From a virus: a DNA stretch of 64,000 nt. Below the pieces are notes generated by a model. It made no database searches. It had not been told where the DNA came from and saw only the letters and a program-made list of their open reading frames with translations. This document shows positions 44,690 to 62,655 of the stretch, piece after piece. Within the stretch, counting starts at the first letter, position 1; every line of letters starts with the position of its first letter. The position numbers and the translations under genes were made by a program. The stretch covers positions 1 to 64,000 of the IMG/VR virus record IMGVR_UViG_3300042563_002067; one strand, given 5' to 3'.

Positions 44690-44720
44690 TTTGGAAGTTA
44701 AAAAAAAAGGATTACCTTTG
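44690..44720 (+). promoter_or_regulatory. Host-type promoter of the tRNA array (P1)
   Basis: TTTG 44690-44693 and TACCTTTG 44713-44720, spacing 19. The leader after it (CCATCAAAATAAA ... ATATTGGTAA) is shared with the second array promoter at 52257. Confidence 0.78.
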
Positions 44721-44769: not shown

Positions 44770-44857
44770 GGAAGGGTAAGCCAAGTCGGTCTATGGGTCG
44801 CGGTCTTGAAAACCGTTGGGGGTAACACCCGTGTGAGTTCGAGTCTCACCTCTTCCG
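44770..44857 (+). tRNA. tRNA-Ser(TGA)
   Basis: Acceptor GGAAGGG / CTCTTCC, anticodon loop CTTGAAA, long variable arm (TTGGGGGTAACACCCG) typical of type II tRNA, T-loop TTCGAGT. First gene of the array. CCA is not encoded. Confidence 0.92.
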
Positions 44858-44861
44858 CGGG

Positions 44862-44949
44862 TTAGTTAAATAGTTTAATCCACACCCAAAAAAGAATGTC
44901 CGGAGCGTGTCCGGGGCGAACGTAATTGTGGTAACCGTTCATTAACTAA
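44862..44949 (+). ncRNA. Structured spacer RNA closed by TTAGTTAA / TTAACTAA
   Basis: An 8-bp terminal helix encloses an 88-base spacer between tRNA-Ser and tRNA-Gln. Inside, GTCCGG...CCGG and GAACG...CGTTC can pair. Confidence 0.45.
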
Positions 44950-44958
44950 AAAATATTT

Positions 44959-45030
44959 TGCCCCTTCGTATATCGGTTAGTACACATGGTTTTGGTCCAT
45001 GCGGGGGGAGTTCGATTCTCTCAGGGGTAA
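44959..45030 (+). tRNA. tRNA-Gln(TTG)
   Basis: Acceptor TGCCCCT / AGGGGTA, anticodon stem CATGG / CCATG with loop TTTTGGT, T-loop TTCGATT. Confidence 0.9.
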
Positions 45031-45040
45031 CAAAGGGTTC

Positions 45041-45079
45041 GGTGGAACCCCAAGAGTAGGTGATGAGCCTATGTCCACC
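45041..45079 (+). ncRNA. Hairpin in tRNA spacer (GGTGGA / TCCACC)
   Basis: Outer stem GGTGGA / TCCACC with inner TAGG / CCTA. First of two hairpins in the 178-base spacer between tRNA-Gln and tRNA-Val. Confidence 0.4.
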
Positions 45080-45085
45080 AAAACG

Positions 45086-45150
45086 CCGAGTGGTCCGGGA
45101 CCAGAGACGGTTCATATCTGACTCTAGAATGGCTCAACACCATTACTCGG
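45086..45150 (+). ncRNA. Structured spacer RNA closed by CCGAGT / ACTCGG
   Basis: 65 bases, with an internal GGTCCGGGACC hairpin. Part of the long spacer before tRNA-Val. Confidence 0.42.
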
Positions 45151-45208
45151 TACGGATGCACTCAGATTTGTACGTTTGAGGAGTGGGAAGAATTAAAATG
45201 TGCAAATT

Positions 45209-45279
45209 GCCTTGTTGGCGTAACGGAAGCGTATTTGTTTTACATGCAAAGGGAAGTGGTTCGATTCCACTACGAGGTA
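45209..45279 (+). tRNA. tRNA-Val(TAC)
   Basis: Acceptor GCCTTGT / ACGAGGT, D-stem GCGT / GCGT, anticodon stem TTTGT / GCAAA with loop TTTACAT, T-loop TTCGATT. Confidence 0.88.
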
Positions 45280-45325
45280 CTAGAATGGGTTCACACTACA
45301 CTGTAGGGAGTTAGGAAGTGTAATT

Positions 45326-45406
45326 GGGTAGCAAAAGTCGTTCGGATACGGCAACCTGACTGTAAATCAGGTCTTCACGGGAGTGGTTCGAGTCCACTGT
45401 TGCCCA
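45326..45406 (+). tRNA. tRNA-Tyr(GTA)
   Basis: Acceptor GGGTAGC / GTTGCCC, anticodon stem CCTGA / TCAGG with loop CTGTAAA, medium variable arm (TCTTCACGG), T-loop TTCGAGT. Confidence 0.9.
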
Positions 45407-45407
45407 C

Positions 45408-45560
45408 TATGATAATGGTTTTCTCTATATTGGATGTCGACAATTCAATATGGGTTCAAGAATTCATCACCCCCCTGAAAAGGGAATGTGCCGAGGGCCT
45501 CGTAAAACTACGATTAAGCACTTAAGATTGGGGCGAGACGGGTACTCCAACATTATTATA
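45408..45560 (+). ncRNA. Structured spacer RNA closed by a 10-bp helix
   Basis: TATGATAATG (45408-45417) pairs with CATTATTATA (45551-45560), one G-T. Inside: ATTGGATGTCGACAAT and CTCGTA...TACGA hairpins. 153 bases between tRNA-Tyr and tRNA-Phe. Confidence 0.52.
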
Positions 45561-45563
45561 ATT

Positions 45564-45636
45564 GGGTCTTTTGTATAGATGGTTCGTACGCTAGTCTGAA
45601 GAACTAGAGGATAGGGTTCGATTCCCTGAGGACCCA
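45564..45636 (+). tRNA. tRNA-Phe(GAA)
   Basis: Acceptor GGGTCTT / AGGACCC, anticodon stem CTAGT / ACTAG with loop CTGAAGA, T-loop TTCGATT. Confidence 0.92.
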
Positions 45637-45720
45637 CAAACAAGGTGACGCTACAGTCGTAAGATTCCGGAATCGAGAAGACAAAAAGCCTAAGTGTAAA
45701 GATGAGCTCCTACATCCTTG

Positions 45721-45760
45721 GACTACAACAAGCCATTTTGCGGTGAAAATCGTTGTAGTC
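45721..45760 (+). ncRNA. Perfect hairpin in tRNA spacer
   Basis: GACTACAAC / GTTGTAGTC (9 bp) with an inner ATTTT-GCGGTG-AAAAT helix. In the spacer before tRNA-Asn; upstream it has GATTCCGGAATC. Confidence 0.48.
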
Positions 45761-45766
45761 AAAAAT

Positions 45767-45838
45767 TGCCTTGTCGTATAAAGGTTATTACGGATGACTG
45801 TTAATCATCTTATGGAGGTTCGAGTCCTCCCGGGGCAG
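45767..45838 (+). tRNA. tRNA-Asn(GTT), copy 1
   Basis: Acceptor TGCCTTG / CGGGGCA, anticodon stem GATGA / TCATC with loop CTGTTAA, canonical T-loop TTCGAGT. Confidence 0.9.
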
Positions 45839-45843
45839 CGAGG

Positions 45844-45898
45844 TTACCTTACACCTCCTATATGGCACTCGGTCCGTTAAGCCGGGGAAGTGAGGTAA
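45844..45898 (+). ncRNA. Structured spacer hairpin (TTACCTTAC / GTGAGGTAA)
   Basis: 9 bp with one G-T, enclosing 37 bases. Confidence 0.42.
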
Positions 45899-45906
45899 AA
45901 AAAAAT

Positions 45907-45964
45907 GACTACTATTAAGGAATGATACGAGCCTGCAAAGTTCGAAAATAGTCAGGTGGTAGTC
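45907..45964 (+). ncRNA. Structured spacer hairpin (GACTAC / GTAGTC)
   Basis: 6-bp outer helix; an inner TATT / AATA adds to it. Directly before the second tRNA-Asn. Confidence 0.42.
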
Positions 45965-45970
45965 AAAATT

Positions 45971-46042
45971 GGACTTGTAGCTCAGAGGAAGAGCGGATGG
46001 TTGTTAATCATCGGGTCGGGATATCGTAATTCTCCAAGTCCG
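45971..46042 (+). tRNA. tRNA-Asn(GTT), copy 2, with unusual T-arm
   Basis: Acceptor GGACTTG / CAAGTCC and D-arm GCTC / GAGC are normal; anticodon loop TTGTTAA. The T-loop reads ATCGTAA instead of TTCGANT, and position 53/61 is T-T instead of G-C. See findings. Confidence 0.78.
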
Positions 46043-46052
46043 CAAAACCTTA

Positions 46053-46141
46053 AATGTGGTATCAGATACTGACAGCTCCTGCTTAAGAAGGGGTGATGGG
46101 TGTGAAAGCTGATTGAAAAGGGTACTTCTCAAACCCACATT
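46053..46141 (+). ncRNA. Structured spacer RNA closed by AATGTGG / CCACATT
   Basis: 7-bp helix, extended after an internal loop by ACCT / AGGT. Inside: GTATC-A-GATAC and AGAAG / CTTCT hairpins. Confidence 0.48.
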
Positions 46142-46155
46142 GATAGGTGATATAT

Positions 46156-46229
46156 GGTGATTGTAGCTGAATTGGTAAAGCGTCTGATTGTGGTTCAGGA
46201 GATTGTGGGTTCGAGTCCCACCTTTCACA
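46156..46229 (+). tRNA. tRNA-His(GTG)
   Basis: Extra 5' G at position -1 (46156), as expected for tRNA-His. Acceptor GTGATTG / CTTTCAC has two T-T mismatches. Anticodon loop TTGTGGT, T-arm GTGGG TTCGAGT CCCAC. Confidence 0.82.
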
Positions 46230-46244
46230 CTTAAATTATGTGTT

Positions 46245-46502
46245 ATGGATGAAGATGGAAAAATTGAAGAATTAGAGGGTCTAATTGTAGATTTAAGATT
46301 TGATTTAAAGAAATCCAAAGATAAAGAGTTGATTTACTTGGACATTTTATCCAACATTGATAATTCGTTAAAAGTGTTGTTCAAGAGGGAACAAGAAAAT
46401 GAGAGATTTAATCTTGGTGATGATGTTAATTACCGAGAATGTATTGAGAATCTAAAGTCGGCGTTGGACGAATATAAACGAGTTTATAAATTACGGTTAT
46501 GA
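46245..46502 (+). CDS. Small coiled-coil protein
   Basis: 85 residues, MDEDGKIEELEGLIVDLRFD, helical throughout with heptads. Directly follows tRNA-His. Function unknown. Confidence 0.6.
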   Translation: MDEDGKIEELEGLIVDLRFDLKKSKDKELIYLDILSNIDNSLKVLFKREQENERFNLGDDVNYRECIENLKSALDEYKRVYKLRL

Positions 46503-46552
46503 AAAAGGTATTGGATAATCTTTGAGGTCTGCTAAACAACAGACTCAAGATT

Positions 46553-46741
46553 ATGAGTGTAAACACAAACAGAATGAAACTGAACAACGCGACTTGTTCA
46601 AAAGATTACAGATTGATTTGGTTAAAGTTTGAATACTCCCCTTATTGGGATGAGGGTGTTTATTACAGAAAAGGACAATTTTCTCACAAATACAGAGAAC
46701 ATAAAACTTGGAAGTATAACCGAAAAACTCAATGGAAGTAA
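46553..46741 (+). CDS. Small basic protein
   Basis: 62 residues, MSVNTNRMKLNNATCSKDYR, aromatic and basic (HKTWKYNRKTQWK end). Lies between tRNA-His and the Leu-like tRNA; overlaps neither. Function unknown. Confidence 0.5.
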   Translation: MSVNTNRMKLNNATCSKDYRLIWLKFEYSPYWDEGVYYRKGQFSHKYREHKTWKYNRKTQWK

Positions 46742-46743
46742 AA

Positions 46744-46807
46744 TGTGTTGTTCCCGTGAGAGGGGGGTATGAAATACGAGGTAGGTTATATCATCCTACA
46801 CAACACA
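46744..46807 (+). ncRNA. Structured spacer RNA closed by TGTGTTGT / ACAACACA
   Basis: 8-bp closing helix, internal hairpin GTAGG-TTATATCAT-CCTAC. Confidence 0.5.
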
Positions 46808-46829
46808 GAGGAGTTCTTAACCTCAAAAT

Positions 46830-46921
46830 GGTCAGGTGGCGGAATTGGTAGACGCAAAGGAATGTCTAAGGTTGGTATCATTCATTCTGTCCAATTACAG
46901 GTTCGAGACCTGTCCTGACTA
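46830..46921 (+). tRNA. tRNA, Leu-type body, anticodon unresolved
   Basis: Acceptor GGTCAGG / CCTGACT, D-arm GGCGGAATTGGTAGACGC and T-arm ACAGG TTCGAGA CCTGT are those of a Leu-type tRNA (type II). A TAA appears in ATGTCTAAGG, but it is preceded by C and the surrounding bases do not form an anticodon stem. Long variable arm TTGG...CCAA. Could be a degenerate or interrupted Leu gene. Confidence 0.6.
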
Positions 46922-46928
46922 CAAAATT

Positions 46929-47001
46929 GTCTCCATCGTTCAACTGGAAAGGACTTATCTTTACGACAGATAGAATAGGGGTTCGAATCCTCTTGGGGAC
47001 A
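46929..47001 (+). tRNA. tRNA-Arg(ACG)
   Basis: Acceptor GTCTCCA / TGGGGAC, anticodon stem TATCT / AGATA with loop TTACGAC, T-loop TTCGAAT. A34 would need host TadA to become inosine. Confidence 0.88.
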
Positions 47002-47003
47002 CA

Positions 47004-47095
47004 AAAGTAGAGACAACGAGGATGATGCGCAAATTCATTAATTAGGTTCGAATCCTAAGCCGGGGGTTTATCCCCCGGCATTGAGACTCTACTTT
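47004..47095 (+). ncRNA. tRNA-like element with GC hairpin
   Basis: Closed by AAAGTAGAG / CTCTACTTT (9 bp). It contains a T-arm-like TTAGG TTCGAAT CCTAA and an 8-bp GCCGGGGG-TTTAT-CCCCCGGC hairpin (47059-47079), but no D-arm or 7-base anticodon loop. Likely a derived tRNA or new RNA. Confidence 0.45.
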
Positions 47096-47100
47096 CATTT

Positions 47101-47186
47101 GGAGAGTAAAACAATCAGGGTATTGTCACCGCCTGCTAAGCGAGTGGTTCGGTTAAATGGATGGATTTCGAGTATTCTGCTCTCCG
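47101..47186 (+). tRNA. tRNA-Ser(GCT)
   Basis: Acceptor GGAGAGT / GCTCTCC, anticodon loop CTGCTAA, type II variable arm, T-loop TTCGAGT with weak T-stem (T53-A61). Confidence 0.85.
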
Positions 47187-47202
47187 CAGAAAATTAAAGA
47201 TT

Positions 47203-47298
47203 ATGGAAGAAAAAGAGAAAGAAAAATTTTGGTATGAAGCAGGGTCTTTCATAACTAAAAAAGGTATTAAAGTAACTCTTTATTTAGAGGTAAAATAG
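47203..47298 (+). CDS. Tiny hypothetical protein
   Basis: 31 residues, MEEKEKEKFWYEAGSFITKK. Directly precedes the gene at 47304. Function unknown; may not be translated. Confidence 0.4.
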   Translation: MEEKEKEKFWYEAGSFITKKGIKVTLYLEVK

Positions 47299-47303
47299 AT
47301 ATT

Positions 47304-47498
47304 ATGAAAAAAATTGAAACAAAAGAATTGTTTGGTAAGTTAGATGAGATGGGTGTTAGTTACACAGTAAATAACAATCCAAGTCCTGAACAAATCGAAA
47401 AATTAAAAAAAAGTATTGAAAAAAGAGATTTAAGAATCCAACAAATGGTGGAGGATTATCACTCAGGTAAGTATGATGAGTTAATTAAATCATTATAA
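47304..47498 (+). CDS. Small helical protein
   Basis: 64 residues, MKKIETKELFGKLDEMGVSY, ends EDYHSGKYDELIKSL. Predicted two-helix protein. Function unknown. Confidence 0.58.
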   Translation: MKKIETKELFGKLDEMGVSYTVNNNPSPEQIEKLKKSIEKRDLRIQQMVEDYHSGKYDELIKSL

Positions 47499-47501
47499 AA
47501 T

Positions 47502-47612
47502 AATTAGTTCCCCCGTTTGTTCCGTCAAGGGGTATAAAGAGACATCAATCAACGGAACCCCAAATGGAGTCCTTGCCTTAGTAGGATAAAGATGTTATAA
47601 ACTCAACTAATT
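47502..47612 (+). ncRNA. Structured spacer RNA closed by AATTAGTT / AACTAATT
   Basis: 8-bp terminal helix around 111 bases; a second helix GTTCCGT / ACGGAAC lies inside. Confidence 0.52.
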
Positions 47613-47616
47613 AAAT

Positions 47617-47691
47617 TCTAGATGTGGGAAAGTTGGTAATCCGCTACACTTGGACCGTAGAGACCGCTGGTTCGAGTCCAGCCATTTAGAC
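47617..47691 (+). tRNA. tRNA-Pro(TGG), copy 1
   Basis: Acceptor TCTAGAT / ATTTAGA, anticodon loop CTTGGAC (stem with one A-C mismatch), T-loop TTCGAGT. Discriminator C is unusual for Pro. Confidence 0.8.
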
Positions 47692-47754
47692 GAAAGGAAA
47701 CTGTTACTAATTTATTGGACCTCATAGTGGGGGGAATCGTAGAATTAGAAAATT

Positions 47755-47828
47755 CGGGGTGTGGACTAAAGGCTAGTCGCCTGGTTTGGGACCAGGACAT
47801 CGAGCAGATTCGATTTCTGCCACCCCGA
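47755..47828 (+). tRNA. tRNA-Pro(TGG), copy 2
   Basis: Acceptor CGGGGTG / CACCCCG, anticodon stem CCTGG / CCAGG with loop TTTGGGA, T-arm GCAGA TTCGATT TCTGC. Confidence 0.92.
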
Positions 47829-47868
47829 CAATTAATTAATATTATTTACTTTTTTTGAACTTATAGTA

Positions 47869-47876
47869 TATTTATA
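47869..47876 (+). promoter_or_regulatory. Phage promoter motif TATTTATA
   Basis: 18 bases before the HNH gene at 47895, within TATATTTATAAT. The mobile gene thus carries its own late-type signal inside the tRNA array. Confidence 0.58.
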
Positions 47877-47894
47877 ATATAAATAAGATACATT

Positions 47895-48467
47895 ATGACT
47901 ACGAGTTTGAAAGAAGATATATTAAAATTAAGGAAAGAAGGTAAAAATTATAATGAGATTTGCGAAATATTAAATTGTTCTAAAGGGACTGTTTCATATC
48001 ATTGTAATAATAATAGTGTAGGGGGTAACTATGTTAGTAATGTTAGAGAAAAGTTAACAGATGTTGAAATTGAAGAGTTAAACATATATTATAAAGACCA
48101 TTCAATTGAGGAATGTATAATTAAATTTAATCTTGGCCGGTCAACAGTTATTAAATACACGAAAAACAAATATGTTAAATTAAGTGTAGATGAATTAAGA
48201 GATAGGAATTACAATAAAGTTAAAACACATAGACAAAGGTTAAAAGAAAAATCTATTAGTTATAAAGGTGGTTCGTGTGAAAAATGTGGATATAATAGAT
48301 GTAATTCGGCGTTAGAATTCCATCATTTAGACCCTAATAAAAAAGATTTCGGGATTGGAACATATAGTGTTTTATCTTGGGATAAAATAAAAGAAGAATT
48401 AGATAAATGTATTTTATTATGTGCGAATTGTCATAGAGAATTACATTACAATTTACTCGGTCAGTAG
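47895..48467 (+). CDS. HNH endonuclease (homing type)
   Basis: 190 residues. The first 100 carry two helix-turn-helix units (LRKEGKNYNEICEILNCSKG, SIEECIIKFNLGRSTVIKY) for DNA recognition. The HNH part has CEKCGYNRCNSALEFHHLDP and CILLCANCHRELHY, with paired Cys binding zinc. Its final 10 bases overlap the acceptor stem of tRNA-Ile, so it sits hard against the tRNA, as expected for an inserted homing gene. Confidence 0.88.
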   Translation: MTTSLKEDILKLRKEGKNYNEICEILNCSKGTVSYHCNNNSVGGNYVSNVREKLTDVEIEELNIYYKDHSIEECIIKFNLGRSTVIKYTKNKYVKLSVDELRDRNYNKVKTHRQRLKEKSISYKGGSCEKCGYNRCNSALEFHHLDPNKKDFGIGTYSVLSWDKIKEELDKCILLCANCHRELHYNLLGQ

Positions 48468-48530
48468 CTCAATCAGTAGAGCATTCGCCTGATACGCGAA
48501 AGGTAGTAGGAGCGTAGCCTACCTGACCGA
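48458..48530 (+). tRNA. tRNA-Ile(GAT) with unusual T-loop
   Basis: Acceptor CGGTCAG / CTGACCG, anticodon stem TTCGC / GCGAA with loop CTGATAC. T-stem GTAGG / CCTAC is perfect, but the loop is AGCGTAG rather than TTCGANT. D-loop lacks GG. The HNH stop codon is inside the 5' acceptor strand. Confidence 0.82.
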
Positions 48531-48537
48531 CAAATGT

Positions 48538-48607
48538 GGCTCACTGATTTTGATTATTAAGCTCAAATTACTTATATTTTGAGCCAAATAATAGAGTAAA
48601 ATGAGCC
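48538..48607 (+). ncRNA. Structured spacer RNA closed by GGCTCA / TGAGCC
   Basis: 6-bp outer helix with an inner GCTCAAA / TTTGAGC hairpin; AT-rich loops. Confidence 0.45.
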
Positions 48608-48612
48608 CAATC

Positions 48613-48683
48613 GCCCCCAAAGCTTTAAGGTGAAGCACGATACTTTTAATATCGGGAAGTTGGTTCGATACCACCTGGGGGTA
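48613..48683 (+). tRNA. tRNA-Lys(TTT)
   Basis: Acceptor GCCCCCA / TGGGGGT, D-stem GCTT / AAGC, anticodon stem CGATA / TATCG with loop CTTTTAA, T-loop TTCGATA. Position 8 is A rather than T. Confidence 0.85.
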
Positions 48684-48716
48684 CAAAAAAAATGTTTAAC
48701 TAATAAATCAAAAGTT

Positions 48717-48956
48717 GTGAGTAGTGTTACTTGGTCAGTATTTAGTGCTGAATATTTTAGTGAAGTAAAAAAAGAATTAGTGTGGAGAAAACAAACTTTT
48801 CTTTATATGGGAGATTTATCCAACGTAGATATGACAACAGATTGGAGATTTAGTGATGTTGAAGGAAAAAGAAGAAAGTGTAAATTTTTAGGGTTAATAG
48901 ATAATCCGGAATTTCCACTAAAAGGACCAATTAAAACATATAGAAATAATGAATAA
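48717..48956 (+). CDS. Hypothetical protein, GTG start
   Basis: 79 residues if the GTG at 48717 is used; the frame is open further upstream into tRNA-Lys but has no usable ATG there. Sequence (V/M)SSVTWSVFSAEYFSEVKKEL, with a Trp/Phe-rich middle. The last 8 bases overlap the next HNH gene. Function unknown. Confidence 0.5.
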   Translation: MSSVTWSVFSAEYFSEVKKELVWRKQTFLYMGDLSNVDMTTDWRFSDVEGKRRKCKFLGLIDNPEFPLKGPIKTYRNNE

Positions 48957-49455
48957 GTACGGAAAAACATTGGTTTTGGATTCAAGTTATATGCCAAGGT
49001 CTATCATAAACACTGAAAGGGCTTTTGTAATAACTTATAAAGGTAATGCAAGTGTAATTGCCGAACATCCGGAATCATTTAATCTAATCAATCCTGAATT
49101 AGATATTAAGAAACCTTCAATCATAAGGGTTTATAAATACGTGAATCAACCAATTCATAAAGTTCCATTAAGTAGAGAGAATGTTTATCGTAGAGATAAC
49201 TTTGAGTGTGTTTACTGTGGGTGTGATAATCGTAAGACATTGACATTAGACCACGTAATACCCCAATCTAAAGGGGGTAAAGACGCGTGGGACAACTTGG
49301 TTACCGCTTGTAGAAGATGTAATGGTGAGAAGTCCAATTTGACTTTGGAAGAGTATGGTAAAGAAATCCCCCAACCAAGACGACCACACTATTTAATGAT
49401 GATGAAACAAGTTCATTATGTTCCAAAAGAATGGGAAGATTATTTGTTTATTTAA
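48949..49455 (+). CDS. HNH endonuclease (HNH_5-like)
   Basis: 168 residues. FECVYCGCDNRKTLTLDHVI, PQSKGGKDAWDNLVTACRRC and NGEKSNLTLEEYG are the zinc and HNH motifs. This size and N-terminal region (LVLDSSYMPRSIINTERAFV) match a widespread phage and bacterial HNH family. May be mobile or a phage nicking enzyme. Confidence 0.88.
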   Translation: MNKYGKTLVLDSSYMPRSIINTERAFVITYKGNASVIAEHPESFNLINPELDIKKPSIIRVYKYVNQPIHKVPLSRENVYRRDNFECVYCGCDNRKTLTLDHVIPQSKGGKDAWDNLVTACRRCNGEKSNLTLEEYGKEIPQPRRPHYLMMMKQVHYVPKEWEDYLFI

Positions 49456-49473
49456 AAAATAGTTATATCTTTG
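49443..49473 (+). promoter_or_regulatory. Host-type promoter TTTG-N19-TATCTTTG
   Basis: TTTG 49443-49446 and TATCTTTG 49466-49473, spacing 19, partly within the end of the HNH gene. Drives the three genes from 49490. Confidence 0.75.
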
Positions 49474-49489
49474 TCAAAAATTAATAGAT

Positions 49490-49651
49490 ATGACAATGGA
49501 ACAAGAAATTTTAGGTTTTACAAATTGGTTATACACTAACAATTGGAAACTAATTGGTGATGGTATGTGTTTGAATCTTGAAACAAAGGAAATTGGTTAT
49601 ATTAACGAACTAATGGTCGAATATGAACTAATTGCCGAATATAAAGAATAG
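49490..49651 (+). CDS. Small hypothetical protein
   Basis: 53 residues, MTMEQEILGFTNWLYTNNWK, acidic helical. First gene after a host-type promoter. Function unknown. Confidence 0.55.
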   Translation: MTMEQEILGFTNWLYTNNWKLIGDGMCLNLETKEIGYINELMVEYELIAEYKE

Positions 49652-49656
49652 AAATT

Positions 49657-49899
49657 ATGATACCAAAAAATGAAATGGTTGAAGGTTGGTATAAGGGTTT
49701 CTGTAGAAACAATTATATGGCTTTTTGGGACGGAGAGAAGTTCCAATACATCCGATATAAGTTCGGGTATCGTTTGGATACCATAGAACATTTTGAAGAT
49801 GTTAAAGAACAAAGATTAGATGGGTTTGTCCCGGTTGAGAGAATTGAAAGATTAACTCCGGAGGAACAATGGAATGAAAAAAATGAAATAGGATATTAA
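49657..49899 (+). CDS. Small hypothetical protein
   Basis: 80 residues, MIPKNEMVEGWYKGFCRNNY, aromatic and beta-rich; one base before the next gene. Function unknown. Confidence 0.6.
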   Translation: MIPKNEMVEGWYKGFCRNNYMAFWDGEKFQYIRYKFGYRLDTIEHFEDVKEQRLDGFVPVERIERLTPEEQWNEKNEIGY

Positions 49900-49900
49900 G

Positions 49901-50500: not shown

Positions 50501-50679
50501 ACAACACATAGAAAAACGGACAATAGAGGCGTAAATTGGTTAGTCCACGCCCCGATATAGCATTAGCCTATATTGTGACGACTCTAAACACCCCAAGAAG
50601 TGTTATGTTTTGTTGAGTAAGGTAAGAGAAGGTTGAAAGTCCAAAACATACTTATCCCAACTTGGTGGATGTGTTGTTT
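50499..50679 (+). ncRNA. Structured RNA, family 1 copy 1
   Basis: AAACAACACAT (50499-50509) pairs with ATGTGTTGTTT (50669-50679), 11 bp. Shares CATAGAAA, the AACAC-loop-GTGTT hairpin, GTGTTATGTTT-GTTGAGTAAG and TTATCCC...GGATGTGT with the copy at 53945. A hairpin GATATAGCATTAGCCTATAT lies in the first half. Confidence 0.65.
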
Positions 50680-50688
50680 TTATTAAAT

Positions 50689-50758
50689 GGTCTTGTTGGT
50701 CGTGGCGACCGGTTAGTCTGCAAAACTAACAGAGTGAGTTCGATTCTCACCGAGACCT
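50689..50758 (+). tRNA. tRNA-Cys(GCA)
   Basis: Acceptor GGTCTTG / CGAGACC, D-stem GGTC / GACC with a very short loop, anticodon loop CTGCAAA, T-loop TTCGATT. Confidence 0.9.
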
Positions 50759-50760
50759 CA

Positions 50761-50916
50761 AATAACATAATTGTTTAACCACGAAAATGGGCTTGAACAA
50801 CCGAATGGAAGACGCGTTTCTTACTAGGGAGTAAAATAGAAAATTAGATTCGGAGGCATCCGGGTTGTGTGAAAAAGTAGGGAGCTCCCGGCAGGGACTA
50901 AAATAATTGTGTTATT
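50761..50916 (+). ncRNA. Structured spacer RNA closed by a 12-bp helix
   Basis: AATAACATAATT (50761-50772) pairs with AATTGTGTTATT (50905-50916), one T-G. Inside: GGAGCTCC and a CGGAGGCATCCG hairpin. 156 bases between tRNA-Cys and tRNA-Trp. Confidence 0.58.
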
Positions 50917-50920
50917 ATAT

Positions 50921-50992
50921 ACGTCATTGGTGAAATGGTTATCATTTTAGTCTCCAAAACTAAAGTTTCAGATTCGAGTTCTGAATGGCGTG
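50921..50992 (+). tRNA. tRNA-Trp(CCA)
   Basis: Acceptor ACGTCAT / ATGGCGT, anticodon stem TTAGT / ACTAA with loop CTCCAAA, T-arm TCAGA TTCGAGT TCTGA. Confidence 0.9.
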
Positions 50993-51065
50993 CAAGAAGA
51001 CGGAGAGTGAGTCAAGGGTAATTCCGTTATGGTTATCCCTCGAGGGTCTCTCCTGAAGAAATATG

Positions 51066-51138
51066 GATTTTGAAGTACAATTGGACGTGCGACCGGTGTA
51101 AGACCGGGAGGATATAGGTTCGAATCCTATCATTATCC
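51066..51138 (+). tRNA. tRNA-like gene, anticodon unresolved
   Basis: D-stem GTAC / GTGC, T-arm ATAGG TTCGAAT CCTAT and acceptor GATTTTG / CATTATC (two mismatches) are visible. The anticodon arm CCGG-TGTAAGA-CCGG has G where T33 should be, so TAA (Leu) is only nominal. Body is not Leu-type. May be inactive or specialised. Confidence 0.55.
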
Positions 51139-51142
51139 CAAG

Positions 51143-51294
51143 AAACAGACCTATAACTTACGTCAGTGGTAGTGTAGGGGTGAGGTTCGGAGTAATCAAC
51201 CAAACCAAGAAACCGCCGAGGGTAAACACGAGTATGATGCTTGTCTAGTCCCCTAAGACTGAAATATCGGAGAATCCTCATTGTCTGTTTTTTT
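51143..51294 (+). ncRNA. Structured RNA with its own terminator
   Basis: AAACAGAC (51143-51150) pairs with GTCTGTTT (51283-51290), followed by TTTT. Inside, TCAGT/ACTGA and TAGGGG/CCCCTA stack, and TGAGG (51181-51185) can pair with CCTCA (51276-51280), which would make a pseudoknot. Confidence 0.6.
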
Positions 51295-51302
51295 AAAATA
51301 AA

Positions 51303-51499
51303 AAGTTTAACAACCGGGGTGTCCATACTCTAAAAAATTAATGGACTAGCGTGTTGATAGGGGTGACCTCCCAATAGTAGCACCGTAGTAATACGGTAAA
51401 GGATAGATAAGGACTAGTACGCCGGTGACGAACACGACGAATTCCGGAATTCCCATTGTAGCCCGCTACGACCCGAGGGCGGGGTTGTTAAACTTTTTT
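51303..51499 (+). ncRNA. Structured RNA closed by a perfect 13-bp helix and terminator
   Basis: AAGTTTAACAACC (51303-51315) pairs with GGTTGTTAAACTT (51483-51495), followed by a T-tract. Inner helices: GTCCAT/ATGGAC, ACCGTA-GTAA-TACGGT, the palindrome GAATTCCGGAATTC, and CCCGC/GGCGGG. Ends just before the NTase gene promoter motif. Confidence 0.68.
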
Positions 51500-51504
51500 C
51501 TTTA

Positions 51505-51511
51505 TATTTAT
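51505..51511 (+). promoter_or_regulatory. Phage promoter motif TATTTAT
   Basis: Four bases before the ATG at 51516. Confidence 0.55.
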
Positions 51512-51515
51512 CAAT

Positions 51516-51860
51516 ATGAAAAACTTTAAATTTTTAATGGATAAACTCAAGGACTATAATTTAGATTCTGAGGATTATGCGGTTTTTGGTTCCGCACCAT
51601 TAGTAATCACCGGAATGATTAATGATGTTAATGACTTAGACGTAATTATACGTCCATCAAAATGGGAATTTAATGATGAAGGTGAATATAGAACCAAAGA
51701 TATTGAATTTTTCAATAATTGGCCCGAATACGATATTGATGACTTAATTGATAATCACTCATTCGTTTATAATGGGGTTCGATTCATAAATCCAAAGAAA
51801 GTTATTGAATATAAAAAATCCCTTAAAAGGAATAAAGATAAAAATATTTGGGATAATTAA
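51516..51860 (+). CDS. Nucleotidyltransferase-fold protein
   Basis: 114 residues. AVFGSAPLVITGMINDVNDL then DVII gives the GS...DxD signature of a minimal nucleotidyltransferase, and GVRFINPKKVIEYKKSL the following region. It resembles MNT/AbiEii-like or tRNA-end-modifying NTases in motif only. Located inside the tRNA array, it could act on tRNA ends or an antitoxin-like target. Confidence 0.68.
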   Translation: MKNFKFLMDKLKDYNLDSEDYAVFGSAPLVITGMINDVNDLDVIIRPSKWEFNDEGEYRTKDIEFFNNWPEYDIDDLIDNHSFVYNGVRFINPKKVIEYKKSLKRNKDKNIWDN

Positions 51861-51878
51861 AATAAATCTTACCAATAA

Positions 51879-51910
51879 TTGACTTTTTACAAAACTAACG
51901 TATATTTATT
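51879..51910 (+). promoter_or_regulatory. TTGAC plus TATATTTATT promoter
   Basis: TTGAC at 51879-51883 and TATTTATT at 51903-51910. It looks like a hybrid: a host-like upstream box with the phage motif at the -7 position. Confidence 0.5.
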
Positions 51911-51932
51911 AGAAATTACAATAACACAACAA

Positions 51933-52007
51933 ATGCAAACTTTAAACATATTACTTACGATAGCGGGAACTGAGGGTAGAGATACAACTTGGAAGCAGAT
52001 GGTATGA
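51933..52007 (+). CDS. Possible 24-residue peptide on a short transcript
   Basis: MQTLNILLTIAGTEGRDTTW. Bracketed by a promoter (51879-51910) and a terminator (52037). The coding part contains GGTAGAGATAC as in the 44.4-kb unit. May be an RNA rather than a peptide gene. Confidence 0.35.
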   Translation: MQTLNILLTIAGTEGRDTTWKQMV

Positions 52008-52036
52008 TATATATTTAAGTAAAAAAAATATTCAAA

Positions 52037-52069
52037 AATCCATCTTCAAAAAAGGTGGATTTTTTTTTG
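52037..52069 (+). terminator. Intrinsic terminator
   Basis: ATCCATC / GGTGGAT stem and a nine-T tract. Confidence 0.88.
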
Positions 52070-52077
52070 TCTTAAAG

Positions 52078-52108
52078 TTTGGTATATTGAAATAAAAGAT
52101 TATCTTTG
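52078..52108 (+). promoter_or_regulatory. Host-type promoter TTTG-N19-TATCTTTG
   Basis: TTTG 52078-52081, TATCTTTG 52101-52108. About 45 bases around it are nearly identical to the next promoter at 52257. Confidence 0.75.
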
Positions 52109-52129
52109 TAAGGAATTAAAAAACAAGAT

Positions 52130-52240
52130 ATGGACGATACAAGAGAAGAGTTGGTTATGGATTACTCACCAATATTAGGAGTAACCTACGGATTAAAAAA
52201 TGTTTTGGTTGAGGATGATTCAACAGAAAAAGAAGAATAA
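52130..52240 (+). CDS. Tiny acidic protein
   Basis: 36 residues, MDDTREELVMDYSPILGVTY, ending in a Glu-rich tail. It lies between the two duplicated promoters. Function unknown. Confidence 0.5.
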   Translation: MDDTREELVMDYSPILGVTYGLKNVLVEDDSTEKEE

Positions 52241-52256
52241 AAAAAAGATTAAAAAG

Positions 52257-52287
52257 TTTGGTATAATGAAATAAAGTATTATCTTTG
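52257..52287 (+). promoter_or_regulatory. Host-type promoter of the second tRNA sub-array (P2)
   Basis: TTTG 52257-52260, TATCTTTG 52280-52287, spacing 19. The following leader (CCATCAAAATGAAA ... GACATATTGGTAA) matches that after P1 (44690). Confidence 0.78.
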
Positions 52288-52334
52288 TACCATCAAAATG
52301 AAACAAGTTAATTGACATATTGGTAATATAAAAC

Positions 52335-52406
52335 GGCCCTATCATCTATCGGTTAGGATATTTGGTTTTCATCCAAAAAAGTCGGGTTCGACTCCCGGTG
52401 GGGCTA
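52335..52406 (+). tRNA. tRNA-Glu(TTC)
   Basis: Acceptor GGCCCTA / TGGGGCT, anticodon stem TTTGG / CCAAA with loop TTTTCAT, T-loop TTCGACT. Confidence 0.9.
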
Positions 52407-52471
52407 CAAGGGTTATGAACAACGTGTCCCCTTAATTTCACAATGTTGACAATTCGGAAAGACGAGTAAAT

Positions 52472-52541
52472 GGGTCAGATGACAACGGCAGTTCAACTGA
52501 TTTGCAATCAGATTGTTTGGGTTCGACTCCCACTGTATCCA
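52472..52541 (+). tRNA. tRNA-Ala(TGC)
   Basis: Anticodon stem CTGA / TCAG with loop TTTGCAA, T-loop TTCGACT. Acceptor GGGTCAG / TGTATCC has two mismatches at positions 5 and 6; D-arm is short. Confidence 0.78.
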
Positions 52542-52549
52542 CAAAAAAC

Positions 52550-52598
52550 AGAAAGACAGAATACGGGAAGTCACTACCCGGGAAACACGGTTCTTTCT
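52550..52598 (+). ncRNA. Spacer hairpin AGAAAGA / TCTTTCT
   Basis: 7-bp outer helix with inner CGGG...CCCG. A second hairpin TTCAATT / AATTGAA follows at 52601-52635, just before tRNA-Asp. Confidence 0.42.
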
Positions 52599-52641
52599 CC
52601 TTCAATTGTTATAGGATAGTCACCTTTGAATTGAAAATTTT

Positions 52642-52713
52642 GGTCTATTTGTCTAACGGCTAGGATGCTACCCTGTCACGGTAGAGGCGAGAGTTCGATT
52701 CTCTCATAGACCG
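52642..52713 (+). tRNA. tRNA-Asp(GTC)
   Basis: Acceptor GGTCTAT / ATAGACC, anticodon stem CTACC / GGTAG with loop CTGTCAC, T-loop TTCGATT. Confidence 0.94.
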
Positions 52714-52718
52714 CAAAA

Positions 52719-52762
52719 CTCAAGATTAATTACCTTGAGAATGGAAGGTTCGAAACTTCCGA
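52719..52762 (+). other. tRNA fragment: hairpin plus T-arm-like element
   Basis: CTCAAG / CTTGAG hairpin (52719-52739) followed by GGAAG-GTTCGAAA-CTTCC. No acceptor or anticodon arm; probably a tRNA relic. Confidence 0.35.
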
Positions 52763-52872
52763 TTGATTATAGTGTAATGGTGCACACCATCCCCCCAAAA
52801 CAGGGTTCGAGTCCCTGGAACGTGGGCTTCTCAGGGGAAGGGAGATTAAGGTTCGAATCCTTACTAATCAGC
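52763..52872 (+). other. Composite tRNA-like element
   Basis: 5' TTGATTA pairs with 3' TAATCAG, and GTGT-loop-ACAC forms a D-arm, but two T-arms follow (CAGGG TTCGAGT CCCTG at about 52800 and TAAGG TTCGAAT CCTTA at about 52848) with a CTTC/GAAG arm between. Total 110 bases. Either a tRNA with an inserted partial tRNA or a relic of two genes. Confidence 0.4.
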
Positions 52873-52876
52873 AAAT

Positions 52877-52946
52877 TGCGTTAAAGTGTAAAGGTTGCAT
52901 CTAAGTCTCATAAGCTTGGGGGGTGGTTCGAGTCCACGTTACGCTA
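52877..52946 (+). tRNA. tRNA-Met(CAT), elongator-type
   Basis: Acceptor TGCGTTA / TTACGCT with mismatches at positions 1 and 6, D-stem GTGT / GCAT, anticodon loop CTCATAA, T-loop TTCGAGT. Could also be read as tRNA-Ile2 if C34 is converted to lysidine. Confidence 0.72.
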
Positions 52947-52960
52947 CTAAGAATAAACAT

Positions 52961-53033
52961 CGTGGGATAGAGCAGTTGGCAGCTCGTGTGGCTCATAACC
53001 ATAAGGTCGGAGGTTCGAGTCCTCCTCCCGCTA
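52961..53033 (+). tRNA. Initiator tRNA-fMet(CAT)
   Basis: CGTGGGA / TCCCGCT leaves position 1-72 unpaired (C-T), the hallmark of formyl-methionine initiator tRNA. D-arm GAGCAGTTGGCAGCTC, anticodon arm TGTGG CTCATAA CCATA and T-arm GGAGG TTCGAGT CCTCC agree closely with bacterial tRNA-fMet. Confidence 0.85.
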
Positions 53034-53055
53034 CTAATTTAATAACTAAATCCGT

Positions 53056-53229
53056 ATGGCTACAGTAGCAAAAAGGTCAAGACAACAAAGAGTTCTTGAA
53101 ATGTTGGAGAAACAATTAAAAAATGGTTTAAAAACCGAAAAAGGAACACGAGATGTGAAGGTTCCATTAACTGATTCTGATAAGAAGAGAATCGTTAAAG
53201 AGATTGAGAATCTCAAAACAAAAGTATAA
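53056..53229 (+). CDS. Small basic protein
   Basis: 57 residues, MATVAKRSRQQRVLEMLEKQ, basic and helical with KKRIVKEIENLKTK. Lies between tRNA-fMet and tRNA-Gly. Could bind RNA. Function unknown. Confidence 0.58.
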   Translation: MATVAKRSRQQRVLEMLEKQLKNGLKTEKGTRDVKVPLTDSDKKRIVKEIENLKTKV

Positions 53230-53278
53230 ACTTATAAGTTTAAAATTTAAATTTATTTTCAAGGTATAAGTTTAAAAT

Positions 53279-53352
53279 GCGGGTATGGTGTTTAACGGCT
53301 AGCACGTGGGCCTTCCAAGTCTGAAGTTTCGGTTCGAATCCGAATATCCGCT
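53279..53352 (+). tRNA. tRNA-Gly(TCC)
   Basis: Acceptor GCGGGTA / TATCCGC, anticodon loop CTTCCAA with G-T-rich stem, T-loop TTCGAAT. Confidence 0.88.
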
Positions 53353-53354
53353 CA

Positions 53355-53553
53355 AAAATAGTGAAAAAGTAATTATATGAAGTAACCTTCGGGGACACTG
53401 CCGGAACCCTTTAACACATAGGTAGGTGAAAAGTATGATGAAAGACAACGGCGCACCGGTCAACCATCTGGGAGTAATTACCCATAACGGATGTGGAGAT
53501 GAAGTCACAGCTCCTTAGGACCGCAATGGTGAAAAATTTGGTCGAACTATTTT
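53355..53553 (+). ncRNA. Structured RNA closed by AAAATAGT / ACTATTTT
   Basis: 8-bp closing helix around 199 bases, followed by AATTTTT. The interior has ACCTTCGGGG, CGGCGCACCGG and many short helices. No gene on either strand is supported here. Confidence 0.55.
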
Positions 53554-53561
53554 AATTTTTA

Positions 53562-53782
53562 TATTCTGTTTGACGTTAGACAGTATGGTGCCCTGGATAT
53601 CTCGGAAACACAAGTGGGGAAGGAAGTTACTCACCACATACAGAAAACATAGATTCGTATGTCTAACGAAAGGTTAAGTGAAAAGGTCGGCATTCGTTCC
53701 AACGTTGCGACAGACTATAATAGGGGAGTGAAGGGGTTTGGGCCTTCACACTTAATTACCAATCTATGTCGGTAACAGAATA
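53562..53782 (+). ncRNA. Structured RNA closed by TATTCTGTT / AACAGAATA
   Basis: 9-bp closing helix around 221 bases, immediately after the previous RNA. A second helix CGTTAGAC / GTCTAACG lies inside, and GTGAAGG...CCTTCAC near the 3' part. No gene supported. Confidence 0.58.
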
Positions 53783-53786
53783 AATT

Positions 53787-53858
53787 GGCTCCATCGTTCA
53801 ACGGATAGGACATTTCTCTTCTAAGGAAATTATCGGGGTTCGAATCCCTGTGGAGTCA
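53787..53858 (+). tRNA. tRNA-Arg(TCT)
   Basis: Acceptor GGCTCCA / TGGAGTC, anticodon stem TTTCT / GGAAA with loop CTTCTAA, T-loop TTCGAAT. Confidence 0.92.
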
Positions 53859-53866
53859 CAACAATT

Positions 53867-53939
53867 GCCTTGGTGGTGGAACGGTAGACACGGAAGTCTT
53901 AGGAACTTCATATTGAGGGTTCGATTCCCTCCTGAGGTA
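53867..53939 (+). tRNA. tRNA-Leu(TAG)
   Basis: Acceptor GCCTTGG / CTGAGGT, D-arm of Leu type (GGTGGAACGGTAGACAC), anticodon stem GAAGT / ACTTC with loop CTTAGGA, short variable arm, T-loop TTCGATT. Confidence 0.9.
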
Positions 53940-53944
53940 CAAAA

Positions 53945-54131
53945 TTTACGCATAGAAAGACAAACAAAATACAAGCCACAACAGTTAATGCACTACAATG
54001 TATTACAACACTATCAAGAAGTGTTATGTTTGTTGAGTAAGATAAAGAAAAACCTGGACGTGAGTTAGGTATGGATTAAGGTGAGAGTCGTAACCTCCAT
54101 AGAATTATCCCCATCTTGAGGGATGTGTAAA
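53945..54131 (+). ncRNA. Structured RNA, family 1 copy 2
   Basis: TTTACGCAT (53945-53953) pairs with ATGTGTAAA (54123-54131), one G-T. Same order of conserved blocks as the copy at 50499, with compensating differences in the closing helix and in the ATCCC/GGGAT hairpin near the 3' end. Confidence 0.65.
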
Positions 54132-54229
54132 AATATACATTATCATAACTCGGTGTGATACACCGCCAACTACCTCCTTAAACAACGTGGGAACTGCGGT
54201 TCTCCCAATGTGGCCGAAGTGATGATGTA
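54132..54229 (+). ncRNA. Structured spacer segment
   Basis: TACAT...ATGATGTA can close it with bulges; GGTGTGATACACC and GGGAACTGCGGTTCTCCC hairpins lie inside. No gene. Confidence 0.35.
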
Positions 54230-54289
54230 AAAAGAAACAGAGAAAAATCTGGACAGCGAAAGCAGGATAGACCTTGGACAGTTTCTTTT
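54230..54289 (+). ncRNA. Structured spacer RNA closed by AAAAGAAAC / GTTTCTTTT
   Basis: 9-bp closing helix, interior CTGGACAGCGAAAGCAGG. A further AGAGC/GCTCT hairpin (54304-54335) precedes tRNA-Thr. Confidence 0.5.
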
Positions 54290-54342
54290 AGTAGTTTAAG
54301 AGACAGAGCTGACTTCTACTTTAAAAAAATGCTCTGCGACAG

Positions 54343-54414
54343 GCTGGTAAAACATAAATGGTGATGTGCTTGTTTTGTACACAAGATAATAGGGTTCGAT
54401 TCCTTATACCAGCT
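54343..54414 (+). tRNA. tRNA-Thr(TGT)
   Basis: Acceptor GCTGGTA / TACCAGC, anticodon stem CTTGT / ACAAG with loop TTTGTAC, T-loop TTCGATT. Confidence 0.9.
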
Positions 54415-54459
54415 CAATTTTTTTTATTGTTCGAATCTGACTTTTGACTCTTTTTGTGA

Positions 54460-54467
54460 TATTTATA
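54460..54467 (+). promoter_or_regulatory. Phage promoter motif TATTTATA
   Basis: 13 bases before the HNH gene at 54481, with TTGAC (54443-54447) upstream, as at 51879. Confidence 0.58.
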
Positions 54468-54480
54468 ATAAAGAGAAGTT

Positions 54481-55194
54481 ATGAAAAAATGGACAGAAGA
54501 AGAATTTAATTTATCAGTGAATTACATAAATAATGGGTTGACTTATGATGAAATTGCGGAATTCTTAAATAGAACTAAAAAATCGGTTAGAATAAAGTTA
54601 AATAAATTTGGTGTTTATGTTAAACCAAAAATTTATACTATTGAAAAAAAATGTATTCATTGTAATAATGATTTTATATCGTTTATTAGTGAAGAAAGAA
54701 AATATTGTTCTCAGTCGTGTTCCGCAAAAGAAAATAATAAATTATATGTTAAACGACAAAAAACCGAATTTAATGTAGAAGTTAAAAATCTGAATAAACA
54801 AATTAAAAATTGTTTGAATTGTGGGTGTGAAATTAATGATTCAACAAAAACATATTGTAATCAAATTTGTTTTCACGAAAATCGTAAAAAAAATATTTTT
54901 AATTTAATCAATAATAATGATACTACATTAAATCCAAGACAATATAAAAAATATCTTATTGAAAAATATGGTAATAAATGTATGGAATGTGGATGGGGTG
55001 AAAAAAACCCAAAAAGTAATACAATACCAATTGAGTTAGAACATATCGACGGAAATGGGTCTAACAACACATTAAGTAATTTAAAATTATTATGTCCTAA
55101 TTGTCATTCTTTAACTCCAACATATAAGGGGGCGAATAAAGGTAATGGAAGACATAATAGAAGAGAAAGATACCAAGATGGTAAAAGTTATTAA
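54481..55194 (+). CDS. HNH endonuclease with HTH and zinc fingers
   Basis: 237 residues. N-terminal HTH of the SANT-like type (WTEEEFNLSVNYINNGLTYD, NRTKKSVRIKLNKFG), two CxxC pairs (CIHCNNDF, CSQSC; CLNCGCE, CNQIC), then HNH: CMECGWGEKNPKSNT, ELEHIDGNGSNN, LLCPNCHSLT. A homing endonuclease-like gene between tRNA-Thr and the Leu-like tRNA, with its own phage promoter motif. Confidence 0.88.
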   Translation: MKKWTEEEFNLSVNYINNGLTYDEIAEFLNRTKKSVRIKLNKFGVYVKPKIYTIEKKCIHCNNDFISFISEERKYCSQSCSAKENNKLYVKRQKTEFNVEVKNLNKQIKNCLNCGCEINDSTKTYCNQICFHENRKKNIFNLINNNDTTLNPRQYKKYLIEKYGNKCMECGWGEKNPKSNTIPIELEHIDGNGSNNTLSNLKLLCPNCHSLTPTYKGANKGNGRHNRRERYQDGKSY

Positions 55195-55197
55195 AAT

Positions 55198-55277
55198 AGT
55201 TAGGTGGCGGAATTGGATAGACGCGGCCCCGTTGAGGGGTTTAACCGGAATTACAGGTTCGAGTCCTGTCCTGACTA
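55198..55277 (+). tRNA. tRNA, Leu-type body, anticodon unresolved
   Basis: Acceptor AGTTAGG / CCTGACT, Leu-type D-arm, T-arm ACAGG TTCGAGT CCTGT. The anticodon arm GGCCC-CGTTGAG-GGGTT gives nominal TTG with G at position 33; a one-base shift would give GAG (Leu) but breaks the stem. A close relative of the gene at 46830. Confidence 0.6.
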
Positions 55278-55487
55278 CAATTGAGATAGAGATACTCAAT
55301 AGATTTGGCATCGTTTCTTAAACAAAGATGTAGCTGACGCCTCAAACGGTTTTACAGAGGGGGTCTTAGGGTTAATAGGGAGCCTACCAACTCACCTCCT
55401 AGTAATGGTTGACTTTTTAAGTGGTAAGACACGTAGGGTTTTTGAATAGGAAAAACTAAGAATATCTACACCAAAATAATCTCATTG
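55278..55487 (+). ncRNA. Structured spacer RNA closed by CAATTGAGAT / ATCTCATTG
   Basis: 9 bp with one bulged base, 210 bases. The 5' part can alternatively form ATTGAG / CTCAAT, a possible conformational switch. Confidence 0.45.
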
Positions 55488-55497
55488 GTGGAAAAAT

Positions 55498-55570
55498 GTC
55501 CTCGTGGTGAAACGGTAAACACAACGGTTTTAAGCATCGTAAGCTGTAGGTTCGACTCCTACCGGGGATA
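55498..55570 (+). tRNA. tRNA-Leu(TAA)
   Basis: Acceptor GTCCTCG / CGGGGAT, Leu-type D-arm, anticodon stem ACGGT / ATCGT with loop TTTAAGC, T-arm GTAGG TTCGACT CCTAC. Confidence 0.88.
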
Positions 55571-55636
55571 CTAATATTTAATATTATGAAAAACAACCAA
55601 CCCAACTCCACTTAGTTTTAGCTATTAGCTAAAATT

Positions 55637-55867: not shown

Positions 55868-55906
55868 GTTGACATATGTTTGTGGGTTCATTAAAAACCC
55901 ATAATT

Positions 55907-62651: not shown

Positions 62652-62655
62652 AATT

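Follow-up and report, generated by a model that had tools for sequence, protein, structure and literature searches.

Organization of the tRNA array

IMG/VR record IMGVR_UViG_3300042563_002067 is a virus record of 159,912 bases, for which a near-identical 175.8-kb IMG/VR contig exists; we analysed its first 64,000 nucleotides (nt), hereafter the window. On the plus strand, at 44770-55979, the window carries a tRNA array with 24 tRNAs recognized by ARAGORN and more by Rfam or at a low threshold. The spacers between these tRNAs are the subject of this work. According to the first-pass annotation of the sequence, they form a collection of structured RNAs, and a terminal helix of its own closes each one. 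We find in them recurrent RNA families that are absent from Rfam 15 and common to many large phages. The elements that carry this finding are:

45035-45079, plus strand: a 45-nt H-type pseudoknot RNA (GGGTT/AACCC; loop GGTGGA with TCCACC), with an inner covarying hairpin
45408-45560, plus strand: the e1 RNA, between tRNA-Tyr and tRNA-Phe, with terminal helix 45408-45417/45551-45560
46744-46824, plus strand: a family B RNA, with terminal helix 46744-46751/46800-46807, two hairpins and a variable arm
50500-50678, plus strand: family A copy 1, with terminal helix P1 AACAACACAT/ATGTGTTGTT, scoring 79.7 bits with covariance model R1
53945-54131, plus strand: family A copy 2, starting 4 nt after tRNA-Leu(TAG), scoring 85.5 bits with the same model

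Spacer ends are complementary to each other

Eight pairs of complementary spacer ends had been noted in the first pass. All eight lie where they had been placed, and every base in them is paired, G-U pairs included in some. Compared with random array intervals of the same length, the single helices have P values from 0.0005 to 0.03, which carry the choice of these eight after inspection. A permutation independent of that choice covered all 17 inter-tRNA spacers of 60-460 nt: the duplex formed by a spacer's own ends averaged −11.1 kcal/mol versus −8.3 kcal/mol for foreign ends (p = 1e-4). Own-end pairing was also seen in 164 spacers of relatives (z = −9.1, non-independent homologues included). 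The folding-energy control came out differently, as the totals of two elements were ordinary (z of −0.7 and −0.9). The evidence therefore consists of end-pairing and covariation, and the comparison with relatives is decisive. Four closed elements had been overlooked in the first pass (50500-50678, 53945-54131, 51141-51292 and 54137-54226).

It is conceivable that the pairing arises by chance from A+T-rich sequence combined with selection of the best pair, as some single helices reach only P 0.01-0.03 and the folding energies are ordinary. However, the permutation result over all spacers and the covariation in relatives make this very improbable. Chance pairing is refuted for e1 and family A, and is possible for another spacer element, e3 (see below).

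The e1 RNA

Homologues of e1 precede tRNA-Phe in several related arrays. A motif scan found at least 120 IMG/VR stretches, and 81 distinct copies are among the matches listed; the RNA is about 135-155 nt long. In an alignment of 56 sequences, 95.9% of cells were paired versus 34-55% in slid controls, which was matched by 0 of 500 shuffles, and 167 cells had double changes versus 45 in shuffles. Both sides of the terminal helix had changed in 8 of 9 counted pairs. An unsupervised scan of column pairs recovered this helix (P1), a CNGC/GCNG helix, the 3' hairpin and a palindrome.

The palindrome is a segment of 8-10 nt whose self-complementarity is kept over about 20 sequence versions. It is perfect over 6-10 nt in 75 of the 81 copies, with diverse sequences that include CGAGGCCUCG, CGAUGCAUCG, CGGUGCACCG, CAGUGCACUG, CUGGGCCCAG, CUGGAUCCAG, CAACGCGUUG and CUGGCGCCAG. 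Its central tetranucleotide is GGCC, TGCA, GATC, GCGC or CGCG in nearly all copies; on the tree these four bases underwent 15 or more changes, with the palindrome kept in nearly all copies. The apical loop, too, is self-complementary: it reads GUCGAC in 75 of 81 copies, and the rare loops GUGCAC, UGGCCA and AGCGCA retain a self-complementary core. Adjacent central bases are unable to pair within one chain, and therefore covariation of the palindrome points to intermolecular pairing. The case for symmetric kissing loops in the OLE and GOLLD RNAs was built on the same adjacent-base argument: OLE is a homodimer whose palindromic kissing loop L9.3 changes from GGCC to GAUC or AGCU, and GOLLD is a homo-oligomer held by kissing loops, in which the L21a palindrome is kept while GC changes to CG (PMC12286853). 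As in GOLLD and OLE, the palindromes of e1 persist while their sequence changes, and we predict that the GAGGCCUC segment and GUCGAC are kissing loops. Through these two self-complementary segments e1 may form homodimers or higher associations. The sequence of e1 is unrelated to that of OLE, and the two differ in host range and size.

In 39 of 50 cases the gap between the 3' end of the upstream tRNA and the e1 helix is 0-3 nt (−1 in one further case), and in 51 of 53 the downstream tRNA follows the helix at a distance of 2-8 nt. Such spacing, with a closed arrangement common to many different sequences, would also be expected if the spacers were mere insulators, that is, closed helices that prevent spacer sequence from pairing with tRNAs, free the tRNA ends for RNase P and 3' processing, and are then degraded. 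However, 17 of 80 copies of e1 have no tRNA within 60 nt, and family A also occurs without neighbouring tRNAs and with its own promoter (see below). In addition, an insulator needs no conserved primary sequence, pseudoknots or self-complementary loops. Because these features and the tRNA-free copies are left unexplained, the earlier suggestion that the folds expose the ends of tRNAs for RNase P or RNase III does not suffice as a sole role, though it may be a secondary effect; we consider pure insulation unlikely. The tRNA that follows e1 can be Phe, Asp, Val, Pro, Ala, Glu, Met or Leu, and e1 is therefore not bound to one tRNA.

Family A

Copy 1 of family A lies immediately 3' of the stop codon of the open reading frame (ORF) 49901-50500 and 8-10 nt upstream of tRNA-Cys. 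A motif shared by both window copies occurs in 13 viral-contig stretches, a looser motif in 30 and a 3' motif in 20. The family model matches 27 IMG/VR records, mostly in single copy, with two copies in this phage. Members are 159-295 nt long. Their consensus consists of the terminal helix P1 (uuuACACAU/AUGUGUaaa), P2 (ACAAACA/UGUUUGU), P3 (AGUAAU/AUUAC), which closes an arm, V1, P5 (GAUAA/UUAUC), which closes a second arm, V2, and the P4 hairpin (AACACU/AGUGUU), whose loop CAAGA forms a pseudoknot with UCUUG upstream of the 3' strand of P1.

Among 22 sequences, 93.3% of cells were paired versus 37-48% when slid, and 21 of 39 pairs had double changes, with 0 of 500 shuffles matching. In the terminal helix both sides had changed in 9 of 10 pairs, and the pseudoknot was 98% paired. 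For example, in one relative P1 is CAGAAAU/AUUUCUG and the pseudoknot GAAGA/UCUUC, and in a window copy the pseudoknot is CCAAG/CUUGG. Covariation in relatives thus strongly supports the structured-RNA part of the earlier claim for e1 and family A.

Many copies of family A are placed directly 3' of a stop codon, and others 1-8 nt from a tRNA. Five tRNA-free copies have a TAnnTTTG promoter at a constant 8 nt upstream of the element. The own promoters, the copies next to stop codons and the tRNA-free copies therefore indicate that family A is independent of tRNAs and that P1 is its boundary. Two copies lie near phage transfer-messenger RNA genes, 350-510 nt upstream (1581-1745 in the locus designated L017; 860-1051 in L159). 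A sequence common to L017, L039 and L043, AGGYTAAACATTGAA, lies 3' of family A and is perhaps another RNA of that island.

The core of family A is 88% identical among 28 distinct copies, while the arms are on average as similar as shuffled sequence. As can be seen from pairs of copies, arms are shared singly: nine pairs share V1 only, three share V2 only, and none shares both. Copy 1 of the window and the copy in L044, both placed before tRNA-Cys, are 95% alike in the core and 95% in V1, and 31% in V2; in L015 and L020, 117 bases of V1 are identical, with different V2 and P1. Family A thus looks like a scaffold with two exchangeable arms. Outside family A, the arms gave only short or duplicate matches in the loci examined, and one strict pattern for the core gave no match in bacterial genome contigs.

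Exchangeable arms are reminiscent of an arms race, and it is possible to imagine the RNAs as decoys or protectors against host defences that target tRNAs, such as anticodon nucleases or tRNA-cleaving CRISPR effectors; their location in tRNA arrays and the T4-family RNA ligase encoded in the window would suit this role. However, no tRNA-like fold or anticodon loop was seen in e1, family A or family B (neither the Rfam tRNA model nor ARAGORN found a cloverleaf in them, or in the element e5 described below), and the analysis brought no defence target to light. We regard this role as distinctly unlikely.

Family B and the 45-nt pseudoknot

Family B, which is about 70-150 nt long, was found in 59 copies in the loci examined. 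Its terminal helix is GUGUUGU/ACAACAC, and its loop UGAGA pairs with UCU(C/U)A of the second hairpin in a kissing interaction; both are nearly invariant in the 34 copies parsed. As helix and loops barely vary, the support for this family is conservation. Its arms are up to 100% identical amid unrelated flanks. Three to four copies with differing arms can occur on one contig (L222, 1964-3642; L289, 614-3181; L097, 9137-12190).

The 45-nt pseudoknot has 10 homologues, upstream of differing tRNAs. In these, 98.8% of cells were paired versus 31-49% when slid, and four pairs had double changes.

The arms of family B, the finding that the same element adjoins different tRNAs in different phages, and the presence of three HNH ORFs in the array could all mean that the elements are selfish or hitch-hiking cassettes, spread with the HNH homing endonucleases and of no benefit to the phage. 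Against this, the covarying structure was maintained in the long term and family A has its own promoters; no element encodes a mobility gene, and the window copies of e1 and of families A and B mostly do not adjoin HNH genes. Mobility and usefulness are, moreover, compatible. We think it unlikely that the elements are nothing but cassettes.

Other closed elements of the array

Further spacers of the window are closed in the same manner:

45906-45965, plus strand: closed hairpin TGACTAC/GTAGTCA upstream of the tRNA gene Asn2; relatives carry homologues at various tRNA positions
47502-47612, plus strand: e3, helix AATTAGTT/AACTAATT present
50761-50916, plus strand: e4, between tRNA-Cys and tRNA-Trp, with a 16-bp outer helix
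51141-51292, plus strand: closed element with outer helix 51141-51150/51283-51292
51300-51498, plus strand: e5, helix AAGTTTAACAACC/GGTTGTTAAACTT with a T-run 3' of it; found in 30 IMG/VR stretches
53355-53553, plus strand: e6, present in L027 and L097 at 92-94% identity, helix without variation
53562-53782, plus strand: e7, with an 18-bp outer helix, present in L027 and L097, helix without variation
54137-54226, plus strand: closed element TACATTATCA/TGATGATGTA; 8 homologues, 77 of 77 outer-helix cells paired, no double changes
54230-54289, plus strand: e8, helix present; 4 near-identical homologues

In e5, 179 of 180 outer-helix cells were paired and nine pairs overall had double changes versus 2.4 in shuffles (13 homologues). 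In e4, 91 of 95 outer-helix cells were paired (6 homologues), and in the element at 51141-51292 all 100 (10 homologues), with one double-changed pair in each. No homologue of e3 was found among relatives, so that it is unsupported by comparison, and e6, e7 and e8 have only three to four near-identical ones; covariation therefore says nothing on these four helices. The proposal of a set of RNAs, each with its own terminal helix, accordingly stands on covariation for e1 and family A, and for several other spacers on conservation with little or no covariation.

A probable polycistronic array of tRNAs and non-coding RNAs

Sequence comparison shows conserved structure, the fit of terminal helices between tRNAs, recurrence, and tRNA-free copies. 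Our preferred explanation, which we consider probable, is that the array is polycistronic and that its tRNAs alternate with independent, compact RNAs, structured and non-coding, which belong to several new families and would be excised by tRNA processing. The transcript would contain e1, families A and B, the 45-nt pseudoknot and further single-locus elements. RNase P acting at the following tRNA, together with 3' processing of the preceding one, would cut these RNAs out, and the terminal helix would then shield their ends. Once released, e1 may associate with itself in the way of the OLE and GOLLD kissing loops, which is the less certain part, and families A and B may serve as scaffolds whose specificity lies in the exchangeable arms and is perhaps aimed at factors of the host while it is infected. 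Of the two roles put forward in the first pass, we thus favour the one in which phage non-coding RNAs are produced along with the tRNAs; the geometry of the ends suggests release as discrete molecules. A bolder reading, which we offer tentatively, is that large uncultured phages carry a combinatorial set of small RNAs excised by tRNA processing, in which e1 forms RNA-only homo-oligomers by way of its two self-complementary loops, and the fixed A and B scaffolds carry recognition arms that are exchanged independently and diversify in conflict with the host.

Several observations weigh against the polycistronic explanation or qualify the finding of paired ends. End-pairing is individually evident in only some spacers, and the folding energies of the two whole elements mentioned above are unexceptional. 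In family B and a number of single-locus elements, conservation is not accompanied by covariation. Column-pair sign tests on supported branches of the e1 tree had too few independent pairs for significance, and the evidence for own promoters of e1 is weak (two copies, both with an upstream tRNA). Some spacers contain ORFs or degenerate tRNAs (45085-45153, 47101-47187, 52472-52541, 52876-52948). All sequences are metagenomic contigs of shared ancestry. Finally, some columns of the core are prescribed by the motifs used in searching, and conservation in those columns is therefore no evidence; most of the covarying pairs that we cite fall elsewhere.

Phage tRNA islands are known for a few giant RNAs (GOLLD, ROOL); in this array the gaps are taken up by small RNA families of several kinds that had not been catalogued, at least one of which recurs in more than a hundred phage sequence stretches. 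As a natural homo-oligomer of RNA, e1 is a candidate small enough to be tested, and in family A we have a natural RNA scaffold with swapped arms. The role of the non-tRNA RNAs in phage tRNA clusters becomes directly testable, and the families can be added to Rfam.

Relation to known RNAs

GOLLD and ROOL are large, ornate structured RNAs of phages and prophages, about 400-900 nt long and often near tRNA islands, and both form homo-oligomers through kissing loops. The present RNAs are likewise phage-encoded and near tRNA islands. Comparison with the Rfam models showed that they are neither GOLLD nor ROOL: a scan of the window and relatives against Rfam 15, down to E values of 5 and 0.5, gave no match to GOLLD, ROOL or OLE, and none to intron or ribozyme models. 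In the window only tRNAs reached the Rfam gathering score, and the elements matched no other family. GOLLD and ROOL run to several hundred nt, the present RNAs to about 45-295 nt. A single array here intersperses its tRNAs with members of several families, and families A and B have exchangeable arms.

The tRNA cluster of phage T4 also yields stable non-tRNA RNAs, C and D (species 1 and 2), co-transcribed with the tRNAs. T4 has two such RNAs and the present array a dozen or more elements; blastn of e1, family A and e5 against 50,697 GenBank phage records, which should include T4, found none of the three in a cultured phage. In mitochondria, tRNAs punctuate the transcripts, and their excision sets the ends of the intervening RNAs. 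Mitochondria release mRNAs and rRNAs in this way, whereas by analogy the products here would be small non-coding RNAs. Candidate structured RNAs from metagenomes of human microbiomes, some near phage genes and some from Bacteroidetes, were described by Fremin and Bhatt 2021 (PMC8040213); a phage tRNA-array family does not figure in the text consulted, and overlap with this catalogue, or with unpublished or other non-Rfam ones, is possible.

Transcription signals and neighbouring genes

Signals around the array, and its additional tRNAs, are as follows:

44690-44720, plus strand: Bacteroidota-type promoter TTTG-N19-TACCTTTG, preceding the first tRNA (operon 1)
52078-52108, plus strand: second copy of the tRNA-Glu promoter, in direct repeat D2
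52257-52287, plus strand: Bacteroidota-type promoter preceding tRNA-Glu (operon 2)
44602, 52034-52064 and 56089: terminator-like hairpins, that at 52034-52064 just upstream of the second promoter set
45971, 46830 and 51066, plus strand: extra tRNAs found by Rfam (Asn2, Leu and one at 51066)
45085-45153, plus strand: degenerate tRNA with a CAT anticodon (ARAGORN at low threshold), no new RNA; a homologous tRNA-Met(CAT) is in L018
47101-47187, plus strand: degenerate tRNA-Ser(GCT) (ARAGORN at low threshold), no new RNA
52472 and 52876, plus strand: degenerate tRNA-Ala and tRNA-Met, beyond the 24 ARAGORN tRNAs

The pattern TTTG-N19-TAnnTTTG has 16 matches in the window versus 3.4 expected. From the promoters at 44690, 52078 and 52257 and the terminator-like hairpins, the array therefore probably comprises two operons. 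Judged from sequence, the host is probably a member of the Bacteroidota.

The region 47100-47198 was first taken as a strongly covarying spacer and turned out to be tRNA-Ser(GCT), which is intact in L018; homologues of 47101-47187 occur in further arrays. A tRNA-Arg-like gene (52764-52872, plus strand) has a 32-base insertion with its own T-arm-like hairpin, and the spacer upstream of it is identical across several relatives. The HNH endonucleases inside the array (47895-48467, 48949-49455 and 54481-55194, plus strand) belong to three different families and are possible movers of cassettes.

ORF 49901-50500 (plus strand) encodes a strongly conserved 199-amino-acid protein, phrog_14949, found in 409 IMG/VR stretches and also in phages without tRNA arrays. 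Relatives fetched through another ORF, 57196-59010, were mostly uninformative on the array. An RNA ligase/tail fibre attachment catalyst of the T4 family (phrog_562) is encoded at 62644-63681 (plus strand); beside a large tRNA array, it is possible that it repairs cleaved tRNAs. Elsewhere the window encodes thymidylate synthase (5446-6717), a PAS-domain protein (15945-17066) and a phage-encoded Hsp70 (20769-22637, plus strand; PF00012, E = 1e-254).

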